A stretch of 64,000 nucleotides of DNA from TM7 phylum sp. oral taxon 349 (lineage in GTDB: Bacteria > Patescibacteriota > Saccharimonadia > Saccharimonadales > Saccharimonadaceae). Where the stretch lies: the NCBI GenBank assembly GCA_018127705.1, contig CP072328.1, positions 620,001 to 684,000 on the forward strand, read 5' to 3'. Position numbers and translations under genes: made by a program. Numbering within the stretch: the first letter of the stretch is position 1; each line of letters opens with the position of its first letter. Below the pieces are notes generated by a model. The model was not told where the DNA came from and ran no database searches. It worked only from the letters and a program-made list of their open reading frames with translations. Shown here piece by piece: positions 8,263 through 13,485 of the stretch.

Positions 8263-11200
8263 ATGACAGCTTTTCATGCGCGCTACAACAAACTTAATGC
8301 CGCCCAGCGCGAGGCGGTCGATACAATTGAAGGACCCTTGCTCGTAGTGGCAGGGCCAGGTACAGGTAAAACTGAGCTGCTGAGTATGCGCGTCGCAAAT
8401 ATTCTATATAAAACCGACACGCTGCCGGAAAACATTTTGTGCCTCACGTTTACCGACAGTGGCGCAACAGCAATGCGAGCGCGCCTGGCGCGTATTATCG
8501 GGCCTGATGCCTACAAAGTAGCAATTCAAACATTTCATAGTTTTGGCACAGAAACGATCAACCACAACAGCGAATATTTTTACCATGGCGCGGCATTCAA
8601 ACCGGCTGACGATTTAACAATGCACGCATTCATGACGCAGATTTTCGATGAGCTGCACTATGATAATCCGCTCGCAAGCAAAATGAATGGCGAATACACG
8701 CACCTGCGCGACGCTATGCAAGTGATTAGCGAACTAAAGCAGGCAGGCCTGACAGGCAATGAATTGCTGCAGATTATTGCAAGCAACGATGAGACGCTTG
8801 ACGCAGTTGAAGCGAATGTAGCATCAATTTTCGCAAACAAAATCAGCAAAACAACAATCACGCTCATCGCACCCATCGCAAAGGCGGTCGCCGAGCTGCC
8901 GCTGCCGAAATTACCGCCCGCAATTACGCCGCTTGCAAACAATTTGGCACTTAGCTTAGCGCATGCCTTCGATGCCGCGGTTGAATCAGGCAAAACCACG
9001 CCAATCACCGCCTGGCGCAACGCCTGGATGGAGAAAGATTCAACCGGCGCGTTTGTGTTTAAGGATCGTAAGCGCCATGCTAAGCTGCGTGCTATGGCGC
9101 CAGTATATAACCGCTACCGCGAACTGATGCAGAAAGCGGCGTTATACGATTACGATGACATGATCCTAAGTGTCGTGCAAGCAATTGAGCGATCGTCTGA
9201 ACTCAAATTCAATCTACAAGAACGCTATCATTATATTCTCGTCGATGAATTTCAGGACACGAATTTAGCACAGCTGCGTATTCTGTTTAACCTCACCGAC
9301 AGTCCAACAGGCGACGCGCCAAATATTATGGCGGTTGGCGATGACGACCAGGCAATTTACAGCTTTCAAGGTGCGGACGTTGGCAATATTCACCGGTTCC
9401 GCGAACGCTATCCAAATTACCGCCATGTCGTACTCACCGAAAACTACCGCTCAGCGCAAACGATCCTTGATGACGCACGCGCCGTTATCACGCAAGCAAA
9501 CGGACGCTTAGAGACAACGATGGAGATTAACAAGCAATTGACGTCACATACAGCAGAAAGCAAGATGGTTGAGTTGCACGAACATACTACGCCCGCAGAC
9601 GAACGTGCCTGGATCGCAAAACATATCGCCGAACAGATTGCGCGTGGCACTCGCCCAAGCGACATCGCTGTAATTAGCCGACGGCACCGCGATTTGGTCG
9701 AGCTACTGCCATATCTCCATGAGCGAGGCATTGCGGTCAATTACGAACGGCGAGATAACGTGCTAGATGACGAGCGTATCATGGCAATCGAGCTGCTTGC
9801 ACGCGCTGTTGTCGCTATTGCCGACGGACAACACAGCGAAGCCGACAGCTTACTGCCCGAGCTTGTGTCGCATCCAATGTACGATTTTTCGCCTGAAACA
9901 ATCTGGAAACTAAGTGTTAACGCCTACCGCAACCACACATCATGGATTAATACCATGCTTGCAACGCCCGCGCTCGCCCCATTTGCAGCGTGGTTGCTGG
10001 AGCGAGCAAGGGCAGTCGCGCACGAATCGGTTGAAGAGTTTATCGACGAGCTCATCGGCGTGCCAAACAATAAGAAACGGCAATTTACATCGCCGCTCTA
10101 CGATCATTATTTCGGTGCAAGCGTACTCGCAAAAAATCCCGAAGCATACCTTGAAGCGCTTGAAGCTCTGCGCACAATCCGCAGCAAACTGCGCGACTAT
10201 CGCGGCGATCATCTCACTATCGCCGATTTTGTCGACTTTATTGACGGCTACCGACAGCTTGATACGCCGATTACCAGCGTACGCAGCCGCAGCGATACAA
10301 TCGACGACGCTATCAACCTGATGACCGCCCATAAGTCTAAAGGACTTGAGTTCGACACTGTTTACGTCATTAATTCCATTGATGCACAGTGGGGCGAACG
10401 CGTCCGCGGGCGCAGCCGCACTATCAGCTACCCGGAAAATATTACTATCGCGCCGAACGCCGATACCTATGATGAGCGCCTGCGCCTCTACTTCGTCGCC
10501 ATGACGCGCGCTAAACGCCAGCTGTTTTTAACGTACGCACGCGCCGATCTAAACGGCAAGGATACGCTCGTCGCCAGCTTCCTGACTGGCGTGGACTTAC
10601 AGCCAATCGTACACCACACGCCGGAGACAGTCGCGCAATTAACCGCACAAGCACAAACTGCGTGGCATGACCGTATCGTTCATAAGCCGACCACTAGCAT
10701 GAAGGCATTACTCGCACCAATACTGGAACAATACAAGCTTTCTGCCACACATCTCAATAATTTCATTGATATCTCGCACGGCGGACCGCAAGGATTTCTA
10801 ATGAATAATTTGCTGCGCTTTCCGCGCGCAAAAACGGTAAGCGCCAGCTTCGGTACTGCTATTCACGCCGCATTGCAACGCGCCCACACTCACTTGAGTG
10901 CCACCGGCGAACGCCGCCCCGCCGAAGACGTCATTGGTGACTTTGTCCGCGAATTACACGACCAGCGCCTCAGCATAGACGAATTCAACCACTACGCTAA
11001 GCGCGGCACCGACGCACTTAGCAAATTTTTACATACTGAATACGACAGCTTCACGCCTGCGCAAAAAGCTGAGCTTAACTTCGCATCGCAAGGGGTCACG
11101 CTGGACGGCGCCCGCTTGACCGGCTCGCTTGACCTCGTTGATATCAACGACAACCATATCTTCGTGACAGACTACAAAACCGGCAAGCCAAGCACAAGCT

Positions 11201-11544
11201 GGACAGGGCGGGGCGATTACGAAAAAATCAAGCTGCACAAATACCGCCAACAGCTTATGTTCTATCAATTGCTCTGCCAGCACTCGCGCGATTACGCCGG
11301 CTACAAGTTTGACGGCGCGATTCTGCAGTTCGTTGAGCCGGACTCGCATGGCAATATTCACAGCCTCGACCAAACGTTCAGTGCTGAGGAGCTCGCACAA
11401 TTCGCTATACTCATCGCCGCAGTCTGGCGCTGCATCATCACGCTTGAGCTGCCAGACGCGAGCGATTACTCCGCTGATTATAAGGGTATGCTGCAATTTG
11501 AGAAAGATTTAATCGCAGGAAACGAAGTAAGCGCACAGGACTAA
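8263..11544 (+). CDS. UvrD/Rep-family helicase with C-terminal RecB-like nuclease domain
   Basis: 1093 aa. SF1A motifs in order: AGPGTGKTELLS (Walker A, near residue 30), FTDSGATAMRARL (Ia), VDEFQDTN (Walker B), GDDDQAIYSFQGA (III), LTENYRS (IV), TAHKSKGLEFDTVYV (V) and RLYFVAMTRAKR (VI). The last ~250 residues contain GTAIHAAL, GSLDLVD and DYKTGK, the H-D-K pattern of PD-(D/E)XK RecB/AddB-type nucleases. It therefore resembles a single-chain helicase-nuclease for double-strand break processing, as seen in lineages without RecBCD. TACAAT at 8249-8254 is 8 nt before the ATG, so transcription is probably leaderless. Confidence 0.92.
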   Translation: MTAFHARYNKLNAAQREAVDTIEGPLLVVAGPGTGKTELLSMRVANILYKTDTLPENILCLTFTDSGATAMRARLARIIGPDAYKVAIQTFHSFGTETINHNSEYFYHGAAFKPADDLTMHAFMTQIFDELHYDNPLASKMNGEYTHLRDAMQVISELKQAGLTGNELLQIIASNDETLDAVEANVASIFANKISKTTITLIAPIAKAVAELPLPKLPPAITPLANNLALSLAHAFDAAVESGKTTPITAWRNAWMEKDSTGAFVFKDRKRHAKLRAMAPVYNRYRELMQKAALYDYDDMILSVVQAIERSSELKFNLQERYHYILVDEFQDTNLAQLRILFNLTDSPTGDAPNIMAVGDDDQAIYSFQGADVGNIHRFRERYPNYRHVVLTENYRSAQTILDDARAVITQANGRLETTMEINKQLTSHTAESKMVELHEHTTPADERAWIAKHIAEQIARGTRPSDIAVISRRHRDLVELLPYLHERGIAVNYERRDNVLDDERIMAIELLARAVVAIADGQHSEADSLLPELVSHPMYDFSPETIWKLSVNAYRNHTSWINTMLATPALAPFAAWLLERARAVAHESVEEFIDELIGVPNNKKRQFTSPLYDHYFGASVLAKNPEAYLEALEALRTIRSKLRDYRGDHLTIADFVDFIDGYRQLDTPITSVRSRSDTIDDAINLMTAHKSKGLEFDTVYVINSIDAQWGERVRGRSRTISYPENITIAPNADTYDERLRLYFVAMTRAKRQLFLTYARADLNGKDTLVASFLTGVDLQPIVHHTPETVAQLTAQAQTAWHDRIVHKPTTSMKALLAPILEQYKLSATHLNNFIDISHGGPQGFLMNNLLRFPRAKTVSASFGTAIHAALQRAHTHLSATGERRPAEDVIGDFVRELHDQRLSIDEFNHYAKRGTDALSKFLHTEYDSFTPAQKAELNFASQGVTLDGARLTGSLDLVDINDNHIFVTDYKTGKPSTSWTGRGDYEKIKLHKYRQQLMFYQLLCQHSRDYAGYKFDGAILQFVEPDSHGNIHSLDQTFSAEELAQFAILIAAVWRCIITLELPDASDYSADYKGMLQFEKDLIAGNEVSAQD

Positions 11545-11658
11545 CTACCGTACGAATTACGCCGATCCACCCGCACGAAACGAGCCTAAGATATGCCCCG
11601 ACCCAGCGCGCAGCAATTATTAAAAATATCCTAATTAGCTCGAATTATAGCAATAAAC

Positions 11659-11820
11659 TTGACCAACTCTGCAGAGCATGGTACGATACAAATGCTCCAA
11701 CCGAGCGAATCCTGGTAGCGCCCCAATGGGCGCACCCGAAACGCTCTGGTACGGGAGTGTTTTGTACGGGATTCGCCGACAATCTTGCCGACACTTCGGC
11801 GGGAAGGAGGTGCATGGCTC
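11659..11820 (+). promoter_or_regulatory. Promoter and branched hairpin leader, locus 3
   Basis: TTGACC (11659-11664), 17-nt spacer, TACGAT (11682-11687). The leader has CGAATCC (about 11706-11712) able to pair with GGATTCG (about 11769-11775), enclosing two hairpins: 11714-11736 (GCGCCC, loop CAAT, GGGCGC) and 11739-11762 (AAACGCTC with GAGTGTTT). A third follows at 11787-11800 (GCCGA, loop CACT, TCGGC). The ribosome-binding site GGAAGGAGG (11802-11810) comes directly after it, as in loci 1 and 2. Confidence 0.68.
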
Positions 11821-12003
11821 ATGGGCTTCTTCTGGGAGGACACCTCCAGGGAGGCGTATGATAACGCCGACGAAGCTGTAAACCGGGGTAACCCTACCCC
11901 GGAACAGCGCCGCCTCAACGAGCGACGCGCTAAGGTCGCGGGTTCTTGGGGCGAAAAGGCTCGCGCCGCGCAGCGAGGCAAGCTGGGGAAGTACAAGAAG
12001 TAG
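11821..12003 (+). CDS. Small charged soluble protein, 60 aa (structured-transcript locus 3)
   Basis: No family recognised. The ATG at 11821 is 10 nt after the strong site GGAGG (11806-11810); another ATG at 11814 is in a different frame and gives no product. The protein starts MGFFWEDTSREAYDNADEAV and ends with a very basic part (RRLNERRAKVAGSWGEKARA, GKLGKYKK), so binding to nucleic acid is plausible but unproven. The coding region contains a perfect 8-bp hairpin near 11883-11902 (CCGGGGTA, loop ACCC, TACCCCGG), and another (AAGAAGTA, loop GCAG, TACTTCTT; 11995-12014) spans the stop codon. Confidence 0.6.
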   Translation: MGFFWEDTSREAYDNADEAVNRGNPTPEQRRLNERRAKVAGSWGEKARAAQRGKLGKYKK

Positions 12004-12019
12004 CAGTACTTCTTCTCAA

Positions 12020-12409
12020 TTGGTGGTCGAGTGCCTCGTACAGCACTTGAGAACACGGAGCGCCAAACTCCGTCCGCTCGTCTACCCAGACGTAAAACGG
12101 GTCGGGTTTGTGATTTCTTCCCGGTCGCTTCTGCGCAACAATGTGCAGGGCGGCAAAAGAAATCACCGGGCGCGTATGGCAACCGACTTACATAGGGCAT
12201 TACTCCTTATGTAAGCTGTGGCGGATTCGATTCCCGCCGCGCCCACTGGGGTCGTTCGTCTTATCGGGGTGACGGACGACGGTGGTTAGCGGGAGCATAG
12301 CAACGATGCTACGCTCCCCGAGCATATGCTCCCACCCGGAGTGGAAGATCTTCCCTTCTTTCACTCCGCCCTTCCTCGTAGCTCCGGCATCACTGCCGTT
12401 TTGAGCCTC
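12020..12409 (+). ncRNA. Long hairpin-tiled 3' RNA domain of locus 3
   Basis: About 390 nt without a credible ORF but nearly filled with complementary pairs: TCGAGTGC/GCACTTGA (12027-12050), ACGGAG/CTCCGT (about 12055-12073), CGTCT/AGACG, GTGATTTCTT with AAGAAATCAC (about 12111-12165) enclosing CTGCGC/GTGCAG, the tRNA-like fold at 12168-12245, GTCGTTCGTC with GACGGACGAC, GGGAGC-TAGCA with TGCTA-GCTCCC, GAGCATATGCTC, GGAAGATCTTCC inside GGAGTG/CACTCC, and CGGCA/TGCCG. I infer a structured RNA co-transcribed with the 60-aa protein. No known RNA class was matched by eye. Confidence 0.6.
12168..12245 (+). other. tRNA-like fold inside the locus 3 RNA
   Basis: A 7-bp acceptor-like stem (GGGCGCG 12168-12174 with CGCGCCC 12238-12244) is followed by an unpaired A. 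A T-arm has the classic loop TTCGATT (12226-12232) on GCGGA/CCCGC, with one A-C mismatch next to the loop. An 11-bp hairpin (12187-12215, loop CATTACT) takes the place of the anticodon arm, and there is no recognisable D-arm. Position 33 is not U, and CCA is not encoded. It is therefore tRNA-like, not a normal tRNA; it could be an RNase P/Z target or a tmRNA-like mimic. Confidence 0.5.
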
Positions 12410-12446
12410 CCCCTATCTCAAGAACGAGATAGGGGCTTATTTATTT
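12410..12446 (+). terminator. Rho-independent terminator, locus 3
   Basis: CCCCTATCTC (12410-12419), loop AAGAAC, GAGATAGGGG (12426-12435), followed by CTTATTTATTT. A perfect 10-bp stem ends the structured transcript just upstream of the dus promoter. Confidence 0.85.
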
Positions 12447-12465
12447 CCGTGGTACAATGACAAAG

Positions 12466-13485
12466 ATGAAATCATTTTGGGATAAGCTGCCGCAACCATT
12501 TTTTGCGCTTGCGCCGATGGAAGCGGTGACAGACGTCGTATTCCGCCATGTCGTGCAGCGGGCAGGCGCACCTGACGTATTTTTCACCGAATTTGCTAAT
12601 GCGACAGGCTGGGTACATGCCGGCGATAAAGCAATCGCCGGACGGCTACTTAAAACTGGCGACGAACACCCGCTAGTAGCGCAAATCTGGGGAGGGGAGC
12701 CGGGTGACATGGAACAATTCGCGGCGCATTGCGCGCGGCTTGGCTTCGACGGTATCGATATTAACATGGGTTGCCCGGCAAAAAGTGCTATCAAATCCGG
12801 TGGAGCAGCACTGATTCGCCGCCCAGACGTCGCAGTTGCCGCTATTCATGCCGCTAAGGCCGCTGGATTACCCGTCAGCGTCAAGACGCGGCTCGGCTAC
12901 ACACACGTCAATGAATGGCGCGAGTGGTTGCAAATATTATTAGAGCAGAACATCGTTAATCTAACTATTCACCTGCGGACGAAAAAAGAAATGAGTAAGG
13001 TGCCAGCGCATTATGAACTGATTGACGATATTGTCGCGCTGCGTAACGCGGTAGCGCCGCATACATTACTGACAATTAATGGCGACATACGCGACCGAGA
13101 GCATGGACTAGCGCTCGTATCTGAGCACCCCGGCGTCAACGGCATTATGATCGGACGGGGCGTGTTTGCGAACCCGTTTTGCTTCGCTGCAAACGACGCC
13201 GGGTGTTTGCATTCTCAGAACAATCTGGAGCAAAACGAAACTATTTCGACCAATAACGATAGCGCAGTAATTTGGTGCGCAGAATTATTTAGCCTCCTCA
13301 GCTACCATCTTGATCTCTTTGATCGCTACCAGCCGCAAACCGGACGTCCATTCGAAACTCTCAAACGCTTCTTCAAAATCTATATCAAAGGCTTCGACGG
13401 CGCAAAAGAACTGCGAGATCAGCTAATGCACACAGTCTCAACCGATGAAGTACGCCAGATCCTGCACCCTCATTCAACCGCTTGA
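12466..13485 (+). CDS. dus: tRNA-dihydrouridine synthase
   Basis: 339 aa. The ATG at 12466 is preferred over 12457 because the latter lies inside the -10 box TACAAT (12453-12458); the gap is 7 nt, a leaderless layout. Motifs: LAPMEAVTD (FMN site), NMGCPAK (with the catalytic Cys), KTRLGY, HLRTKKEMSK (His/Lys), NGD and GIMIGRG. The enzyme reduces uridine to dihydrouridine in tRNA D-loops using FMN. It is followed after about 55 nt by cysS, which has its own -10 box. Confidence 0.92.
   Translation: MKSFWDKLPQPFFALAPMEAVTDVVFRHVVQRAGAPDVFFTEFANATGWVHAGDKAIAGRLLKTGDEHPLVAQIWGGEPGDMEQFAAHCARLGFDGIDINMGCPAKSAIKSGGAALIRRPDVAVAAIHAAKAAGLPVSVKTRLGYTHVNEWREWLQILLEQNIVNLTIHLRTKKEMSKVPAHYELIDDIVALRNAVAPHTLLTINGDIRDREHGLALVSEHPGVNGIMIGRGVFANPFCFAANDAGCLHSQNNLEQNETISTNNDSAVIWCAELFSLLSYHLDLFDRYQPQTGRPFETLKRFFKIYIKGFDGAKELRDQLMHTVSTDEVRQILHPHSTA

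Follow-up and report, generated by a model that had tools for sequence, protein, structure and literature searches.

The window, the 64,000-nt stretch of the TM7 phylum sp. oral taxon 349 genome (G000; 1.02 Mb, single contig) that we analyzed, carries immediately upstream of dus a unit that represents one form of the hypervariable locus separating a uvrD-like gene from dus. We propose that this unit encodes a dual-function RNA scaffold that would both control and express a swappable small protein, a reading to which we give a probability of roughly 0.45. Judging from sequence, the unit appears to have its own promoter and terminator signals and a conserved three-way-junction leader that ends at the Shine-Dalgarno region, its structured 3′ part consists of an H-type pseudoknot followed by a tRNA-like domain that is non-decoding by eye, and its small ORF can give way to an unrelated one on a retained RNA scaffold. 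The original prediction, which had described the span as a hairpin-tiled transcript combining a small protein with an ornate RNA, had not anticipated the syntenic but hypervariable locus, the presence of a pseudoknot, or the swapping of the ORF.

A candidate transcription unit with structural and coding selection

The span from 11659 to 12446 looks like a single transcription unit made up of a promoter, an ORF, a structured RNA, and a terminator (Table 1). The promoter-like sequence occurs once in the span, compared with a shuffle mean of 0.2, and its position places the presumed transcript start at 11694. The terminator scan alone is at chance (one in the span, shuffle mean 1.2), and the terminator stem shows a compensatory U-A to C-G change in G009. 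The motif AAGGAGG (11804 to 11810) lies 10 nt 5′ of the 60-aa ORF start.

Table 1. Features of the window unit and its flanking genes, with the basis of each assignment
Feature	Positions	Strand	Basis or remark
Upstream flank: UvrD helicase with PD-(D/E)XK nuclease domain	8263..11544	+	
Putative promoter TTGACC-17-TACGAT, TG ahead of second hexamer	11659..11687	+	sigma-70-type
Predicted 5′ leader: three-way junction, then hairpin, then Shine-Dalgarno region	11694..11820	+	leader model R1, folds
Shine-Dalgarno AAGGAGGTG	11804..11812	+	sequence
60-aa basic ORF, exchangeable payload	11821..12003	+	pS/pN against G009, relatives
Tentative H-type pseudoknot CGTCT/AGACG with ACCC/GGGT	12079..12102	+	by eye
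H-type pseudoknot immediately 5′ of tRNA-like domain	12100..12166	+	shuffles, G009 compensatory change
tRNA-like domain	12168..12245	+	strict scan, clan models, G009 identity
3′ hairpin domain	12247..12400	+	G009 alignment, compensatory pairs
Putative terminator: 10-bp stem, 6-nt loop, T-rich tail	12410..12446	+	hairpin = 12410..12435, G009 change
Downstream flank: dus, dihydrouridine synthase	12457..13485	+	start perhaps 12466

Two further observations concern this stretch. A TACAAT element (12453 to 12468) overlaps the annotated dus start, and the dus mRNA may be leaderless, with its start codon at 12466. On the minus strand, a 189-aa open frame (11631 to 12200) runs antisense across most of the RNA; since no antisense frame of that span was seen in the G009 ORF list, it is probably due to chance.

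The predicted fold of positions 11659 to 12442 (784 nt) has a minimum free energy (MFE) of -379.2 kcal/mol with a z-score of -11.8, and none of 20 shuffles was equally stable. G009 is the sole genome among the 59 others searched that carries the whole element, at the same place and with 74% identity. This identity is distributed unevenly, at 87.5% in the promoter (28 of 32 bases of 11659 to 11690), 86.2% in the leader, 55.6% in the ORF, 73.3% from the ORF end to the pseudoknot region, 67.2% in the pseudoknot region, 83.5% in the tRNA-like domain (66 of 79 bases of 12168 to 12246), 71.1% in the 3′ domain (108 of 152 aligned bases, with compensatory pairs), and 92.9% in the terminator.

To use this comparison, we predicted a structure from the window sequence alone (11691 to 12442) and checked its pairs in G009. 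Outside the ORF, 16 of 19 pairs with changes on both sides were still paired, compared with 25 of 67 in the six slid controls taken together, and for one-sided changes the excess was small (19 kept, 20 broken). Where a pair touches the ORF, both-side changes were kept in 5 of 13 cases, no better than in the slid controls. The ORF itself has a pS of 0.83 and a pN of 0.31 against G009, indicating coding selection. Therefore, these results point to a structurally selected RNA around a coding-selected ORF.

The original prediction is borne out as an observation and in part as an interpretation. It had claimed a promoter-to-terminator span, for which we find a promoter-like sequence above shuffles and a terminator stem with compensatory change, and one small protein gene with an excellent ribosome-binding site, which agrees with the 60-aa ORF, its AAGGAGG motif, and its coding selection. 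Its claim that stems tile nearly the whole span is supported outside the ORF only. It had also pointed to homologues as the place where stems might prove not to be preserved by compensatory mutations, and outside the ORF the stems are so preserved in G009. Finally, it had been unable to match the RNA to a named class, and the Rfam search agrees, with no family reaching its gathering score in the span; at a lax threshold there were five matches, every one with E of at least 0.56, the tRNA-type match being tRNA-Sec (17.5 bits, E 1.8).

tRNA-like domains and the pseudoknots that precede them

In the window unit, a 7-bp acceptor stem is formed by GGGCGCG (12168 to 12174) and CGCGCCC (12238 to 12244), and the T-arm GCGGA-TTCGATT-CCCGC (12221 to 12237) forms four of its five stem pairs. 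The domain has no D-arm, a long helix at the anticodon-arm position, and a discriminator A. It encodes no CCA, and the three tRNAs in the window do encode CCA. The element is not recognized by ARAGORN and lies below the RF00005 cut-off; some other loci hold recognized tRNAs. The approximately 390 nt of structure originally predicted 3′ of the ORF, within a span folding at a z-score of -11.8, and the tRNA-like fold claimed there are both recovered, the former as about 400 nt of structured RNA and the latter as an acceptor stem and a TTCGATT T-arm.

A strict scan (7/7 acceptor pairs, a T-stem, and a T-loop) of 34 intervals, chosen after removal of three duplicates as well as of L117, G017, and L120, found 25 tRNA-like elements spread over 18 of them; shuffles gave 0.3 on average and at most 2. 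The other 16 intervals hold no strict element. None was found on the reverse strand or in 16 Bacillota dus upstream regions, and adding L120, L127, and L128 brings the count to 19 of 37 intervals. By eye, decoding is ruled out by a GCAA tetraloop (L030) or CACA (L032) in place of the anticodon loop, by long helices (G000, G009, L025), and by long inserts (L041, L029). Normal-looking tRNAs also occur at the locus, namely Gly-GCC in G004 and Cys-GCA in G005.

An H-type pseudoknot fits directly 5′ of 12 of the 25 elements, at a score reached by at most 4 of 60 shuffles. In the window its helices are S1 (12100-12106/12120-12126) and S2 (12110-12119/12157-12166), with 0/60 shuffles as good; the same holds for G009, where S2 carries a compensatory change. 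The corresponding counts are 0 for L032, 1 for L029, 3 each for L027 and L031, and 4 for L025, while two of the three elements of L026 gave 2/60 and 0/60. For G004 (0/60) and two L036 elements (4/60, 0/60), long hairpins may account for the score. The pseudoknot is at chance level at three elements (G005, one of those in L043, and L088), and the remaining 10 of 25 gave none. In G163 and G177, 0/100 shuffles were as good. The tentative pseudoknot at 12079 to 12102 shows an S1 change from U-A to C-G in G009; it runs into the outermost pairs of S1 in the downstream pseudoknot, and the script did not recover it, choosing other pairings in G000 and G009.

The original prediction had also likened the unit to tmRNA, which stands in part. 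For the G009 domain, tmRNA is the top model of the tRNA/tmRNA clan, at 30.6 bits against a cut-off of 47 and with the middle 296 model positions skipped. Since ordinary tRNAs score similarly, at about 30 bits, we read this as resemblance of the domain and not as membership. The window element is absent from the 10 tmRNA-model matches in G000. The unit itself is not a tmRNA; a genuine tmRNA lies elsewhere in the genome (G000:C1:926790-927188; L123), as does SmpB, and a tmRNA gene was rejected as an identity for the unit. That genuine tmRNA scores 100.5 bits in Rfam, yet ARAGORN missed it.

L036 and L041 represent a further architecture at the uvrD-dus locus. They hold three and two tRNA-like elements, respectively, some inside a CATGAAAGTT...AACTTTCATG long-range pairing that is not above shuffles (2/20 in L036, 5/20 in L041). 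In neither did our scan find a small ORF preceded by a Shine-Dalgarno motif, and the ORF and the tRNA-like module are therefore separable. Separately, the G012/L028 interval contains a second unit at position 1394, which has what looks by eye like a promoter and also a long-armed tRNA-like element.

The uvrD-dus locus and its exchangeable small ORFs

Within the genus, dus is present in 11 of 13 genomes, and all 11 carry an insert upstream of it. The script measured these inserts at 372 to 1,441 nt; it misjudged the upstream ORF of G012, where the insert, measured in L028, spans 1,662 nt. In genus members other than G009, the inserts have no DNA match to that of the window at E 0.001. A public scan with a Dus alignment returned at least 80 loci, of which we took 30 as Saccharibacteria or close kin (26 are named Saccharibacteria, Saccharimonadia, TM7, or Nanosynbacter) and set aside the other 50, mainly Bacillota by name. 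Three of the 30 (L031, L035, L042) lie at contig ends and are not assessable. Among the matches listed, a large insert is present in 24 of the 27 assessable loci (22 inserts of at least 445 nt plus L029 and L052), three of which, L025, L028, and L040, are the genus members G003, G012, and G010; no insert is present in L049, L055, and L102 (21 to 31 nt). The locus also occurs in the oral taxon TM7 348 genome (L033).

The inserts fold strongly, with z-scores below -3 in 28 of 30 (median -7.3) versus 0 of 19 neighboring coding stretches; each z-score is based on 12 to 20 shuffles and covers no more than about 640 nt of its interval. Ten further folds gave z-scores of -3.9 to -15.2; these include G017 and L111, which lie away from dus, and a repeat of G002, whose two runs gave -2.2 and -3.9. 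A helix of the type GACAG...CTGTC forms a 14-bp long-range pairing in G017 and closes the inserts of nine further loci (L034, L038, L039, L043, L044, L048, L053, L054, and L119, that of L043 not being above shuffles), and a shortened version occurs in L046. Across five chosen loci, double changes are found at 6 of its 14 positions. In the window class, a search for long-range closing helices gave none above shuffles; the shuffles that were as good numbered 11 of 20 for G000, 4 for G009, 20 for L025, and 3 for L028.

A leader model (R1) built from four genomes and run on 394 genomes matched seven, the further ones being the second locus of G073, G156, and G092. A model of the pseudoknot region (R2) matched five of 394, of which G163 and G177 are new, and missed the window, though the pseudoknot script finds the same topology there. 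Because R1 and R2 match so few genomes, the leader and pseudoknot-region modules are narrow. A clear Shine-Dalgarno hairpin is present in the MFE structure of three of the seven leaders, that of the window not being among them. This one leader is found with different ORFs, of the helical type in G000 and G009 and cysteine-rich in L025, L028, and the second locus of G073. At this second locus (G073 C3, L111), which is unrelated to uvrD-dus, the leader and the cysteine-rich ORF lie beside a nusA-like gene (by eye) without the tRNA-like part, and this is a minimal unit.

The sister pair G163 and G177 illustrates the exchange of the ORF. Their uvrD and dus genes are 94% and 96% identical (400 nt each), the leader 89%, the ORF-to-element stretch 88%, the tRNA-like element 75%, and the 3′ part 91%. 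By contrast, their ORFs give no BLASTP alignment and reach 50% only when force-aligned. The G163 ORF shares 63% identity with its counterpart in G009, from another genus and on a different scaffold, and by eye the ORF of G177 looks similar to the one in L032. With scaffold parts at 88 to 91% identity and ORFs that cannot be aligned, the small ORF therefore behaves, in this one pair, as an exchangeable cassette.

We scanned 39 units (37 uvrD-dus intervals, G017, and L111) for ORFs of 35 to 100 codons behind a Shine-Dalgarno motif. Such an ORF is present in 33, a count that has no shuffled control and includes some overlapping chance frames; in G007 the only match differs from the ORF taken as payload. 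By the scan rules, L036, L037, L041, L046, L052, and L128 have none, and L128 has one by eye. The payloads appear to be either basic and helical like that of the window (helical being a guess from sequence) or cysteine-rich; the window payload is basic and lacks cysteine. In the G009 interval (L010), a second promoter-ORF unit (MFSFKEAAKIVT..., 65 aa) lies upstream of the homologous element.

The window protein has no Pfam match over cut-off (DUF7059, E 0.17), no NCBIfam match, and PHROG 5501 as its best PHROGs match (E 0.13). Among other payloads, seven searched in Pfam and five in NCBIfam all stayed below cut-offs, and three in PHROGs gave E 0.0083 or worse; the best match of any payload to a family is L025 to RtpA (E 0.0009, 19.3 bits, cut-off 65). 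A phage element was considered and rejected: the 60-aa protein matched none of 50,697 phage records in a tblastn search, and none of 31 pattern matches in viral contigs was confirmed. The protein family has eight matches in 392 genomes of the order, four being query rows. Seven of the eight lie inside the uvrD-dus interval and the other (L122) is spurious, with a stop codon and in an unrelated region, so the co-occurrence of protein and RNA that the original prediction proposed to check is found. A match in G262 (L007) was discarded as it sits within a dnaK-like gene, by eye. The relative in G017 (L006) lies away from uvrD-dus, yet within a strongly folding stretch; there the small protein is located between a sigma-like/HTH gene and a secretion-ATPase-like gene (by eye), inside the 14-bp closing helix.

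Alternative explanations, known systems, and implications

A rival reading is a large ribonucleoprotein scaffold of the OLE or GOLLD kind, with the RNA as the active component and the small protein, basic or cysteine-rich, as its binding partner. The small payloads, basic in the window and cysteine-rich in others, and the co-occurrence of protein and RNA favor this reading, as do size, fold stability, and tRNA inclusion, which resemble GOLLD, an RNA with tRNAs in its linker in some cases (PMC12286853). We nevertheless consider it unlikely, as an unrelated protein has been swapped in on a nearly unchanged scaffold, which argues against a fixed protein-RNA pair, and neither the window nor 16 related loci have an Rfam match to OLE, ROOL, or GOLLD. 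The 3′ half of tmRNA has the order ORF, pseudoknot, tRNA-like domain. This order recurs in the window unit and would fit a tmRNA-derived element acting in ribosome rescue or cis-tagging its own product, as would the absent D-arm, the pseudoknot directly ahead of the domain, and the top clan score in G009. That origin is improbable, given that the ORF has its own Shine-Dalgarno sequence and start codon and sits outside the tRNA-like domain, that the score stays under its cut-off and is matched by ordinary tRNAs, that CCA is not encoded, that a genuine tmRNA and SmpB are present, and that the window copy, with its T-stem mismatch, is not among the tmRNA-model matches of its genome.

An insertion hotspot of decaying tRNA genes and small ORFs with no function of their own could explain the hypervariable content and the normal-looking tRNAs in G004 and G005, but compensatory evolution, coding selection, long-range closing helices with double changes, and strong folding in 28 of 30 intervals speak against it, and we disfavor it as very improbable. 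The least probable of these rivals, though close to the hotspot reading, is an autoregulatory dus leader in which the neighboring dihydrouridine synthase binds a tRNA mimic: dus synteny and tRNA mimicry do coincide at many loci, but dus is preceded by a terminator-like hairpin and also by a distinct -10-like element, a 310-aa ORF separates the RNA from dus in L029, no D-arm is seen by eye in the tRNA-like domains of G000, G009, and L025, and related units lie away from dus in G017 and in G073 C3.

The unit resembles tmRNA (RF00023) in having an acceptor stem and T-arm without a D-stem and a long helix replacing the anticodon arm, and in combining an ORF with a pseudoknot in a single RNA. However, the tRNA-like domain of tmRNA is assembled from both RNA ends enclosing a tag ORF that lacks its own Shine-Dalgarno sequence and start, whereas that of the window is continuous (12168 to 12245) and follows an ORF with its own ribosome-binding site (AAGGAGG and ATG). 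In tmRNA, pseudoknots flank the ORF; in the window unit, one pseudoknot 3′ of the ORF is well supported and a second is seen by eye only. GOLLD and ROOL are likewise large, ornate bacterial RNAs associated with tRNAs, and the GOLLD linker sometimes holds tRNAs (PMC12286853); unlike them, the window unit has no Rfam match, lies at a hypervariable syntenic chromosomal locus, and embeds a protein gene whose 60-aa product has no phage match. OLE is described as a large structured bacterial RNA with protein partners, but the window unit has no Rfam match to it and its protein gene is exchangeable. The L025 payload recalls anti-TRAP (RtpA) in being a small CxxC protein, but its match is weak and far below cut-off, and the window payload has neither cysteine nor such a match. 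The unit matched no Rfam class and its payloads no curated protein family in our searches, and among open-licence papers we found no description of the locus.

Returning to the dual-function scaffold, the RNA would regulate and stabilize payload translation. The leaders of some relatives could sequester the Shine-Dalgarno sequence within a hairpin. The pseudoknot and tRNA-like module might be recognized by the tRNA machinery (RNase P/RNase Z, EF-Tu, a synthetase, or SmpB) and serve as a processing or sensing element. The rapid turnover of payload and scaffold hints at an arms race, whose other side may be phages or the bacteria on which these episymbionts live. A bolder proposal, which we consider unlikely, is a phylum-wide platform in which an RNA with a pseudoknot and a non-decoding tRNA domain like that of tmRNA would be a docking frame for exchanged, unrelated small genes, the cassette being defined by the RNA scaffold and not by a protein or integrase, and payload output being coupled to the state of the translation machinery.

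If the scaffold reading is true, Saccharibacteria would possess a large and highly variable RNA class at one point of synteny, with exchangeable genes inside a conserved frame. The repeated acceptor-plus-T-arm domains, which seemingly lose decoding, lend themselves to targeted biochemistry with RNase P, RNase Z, EF-Tu, and SmpB.
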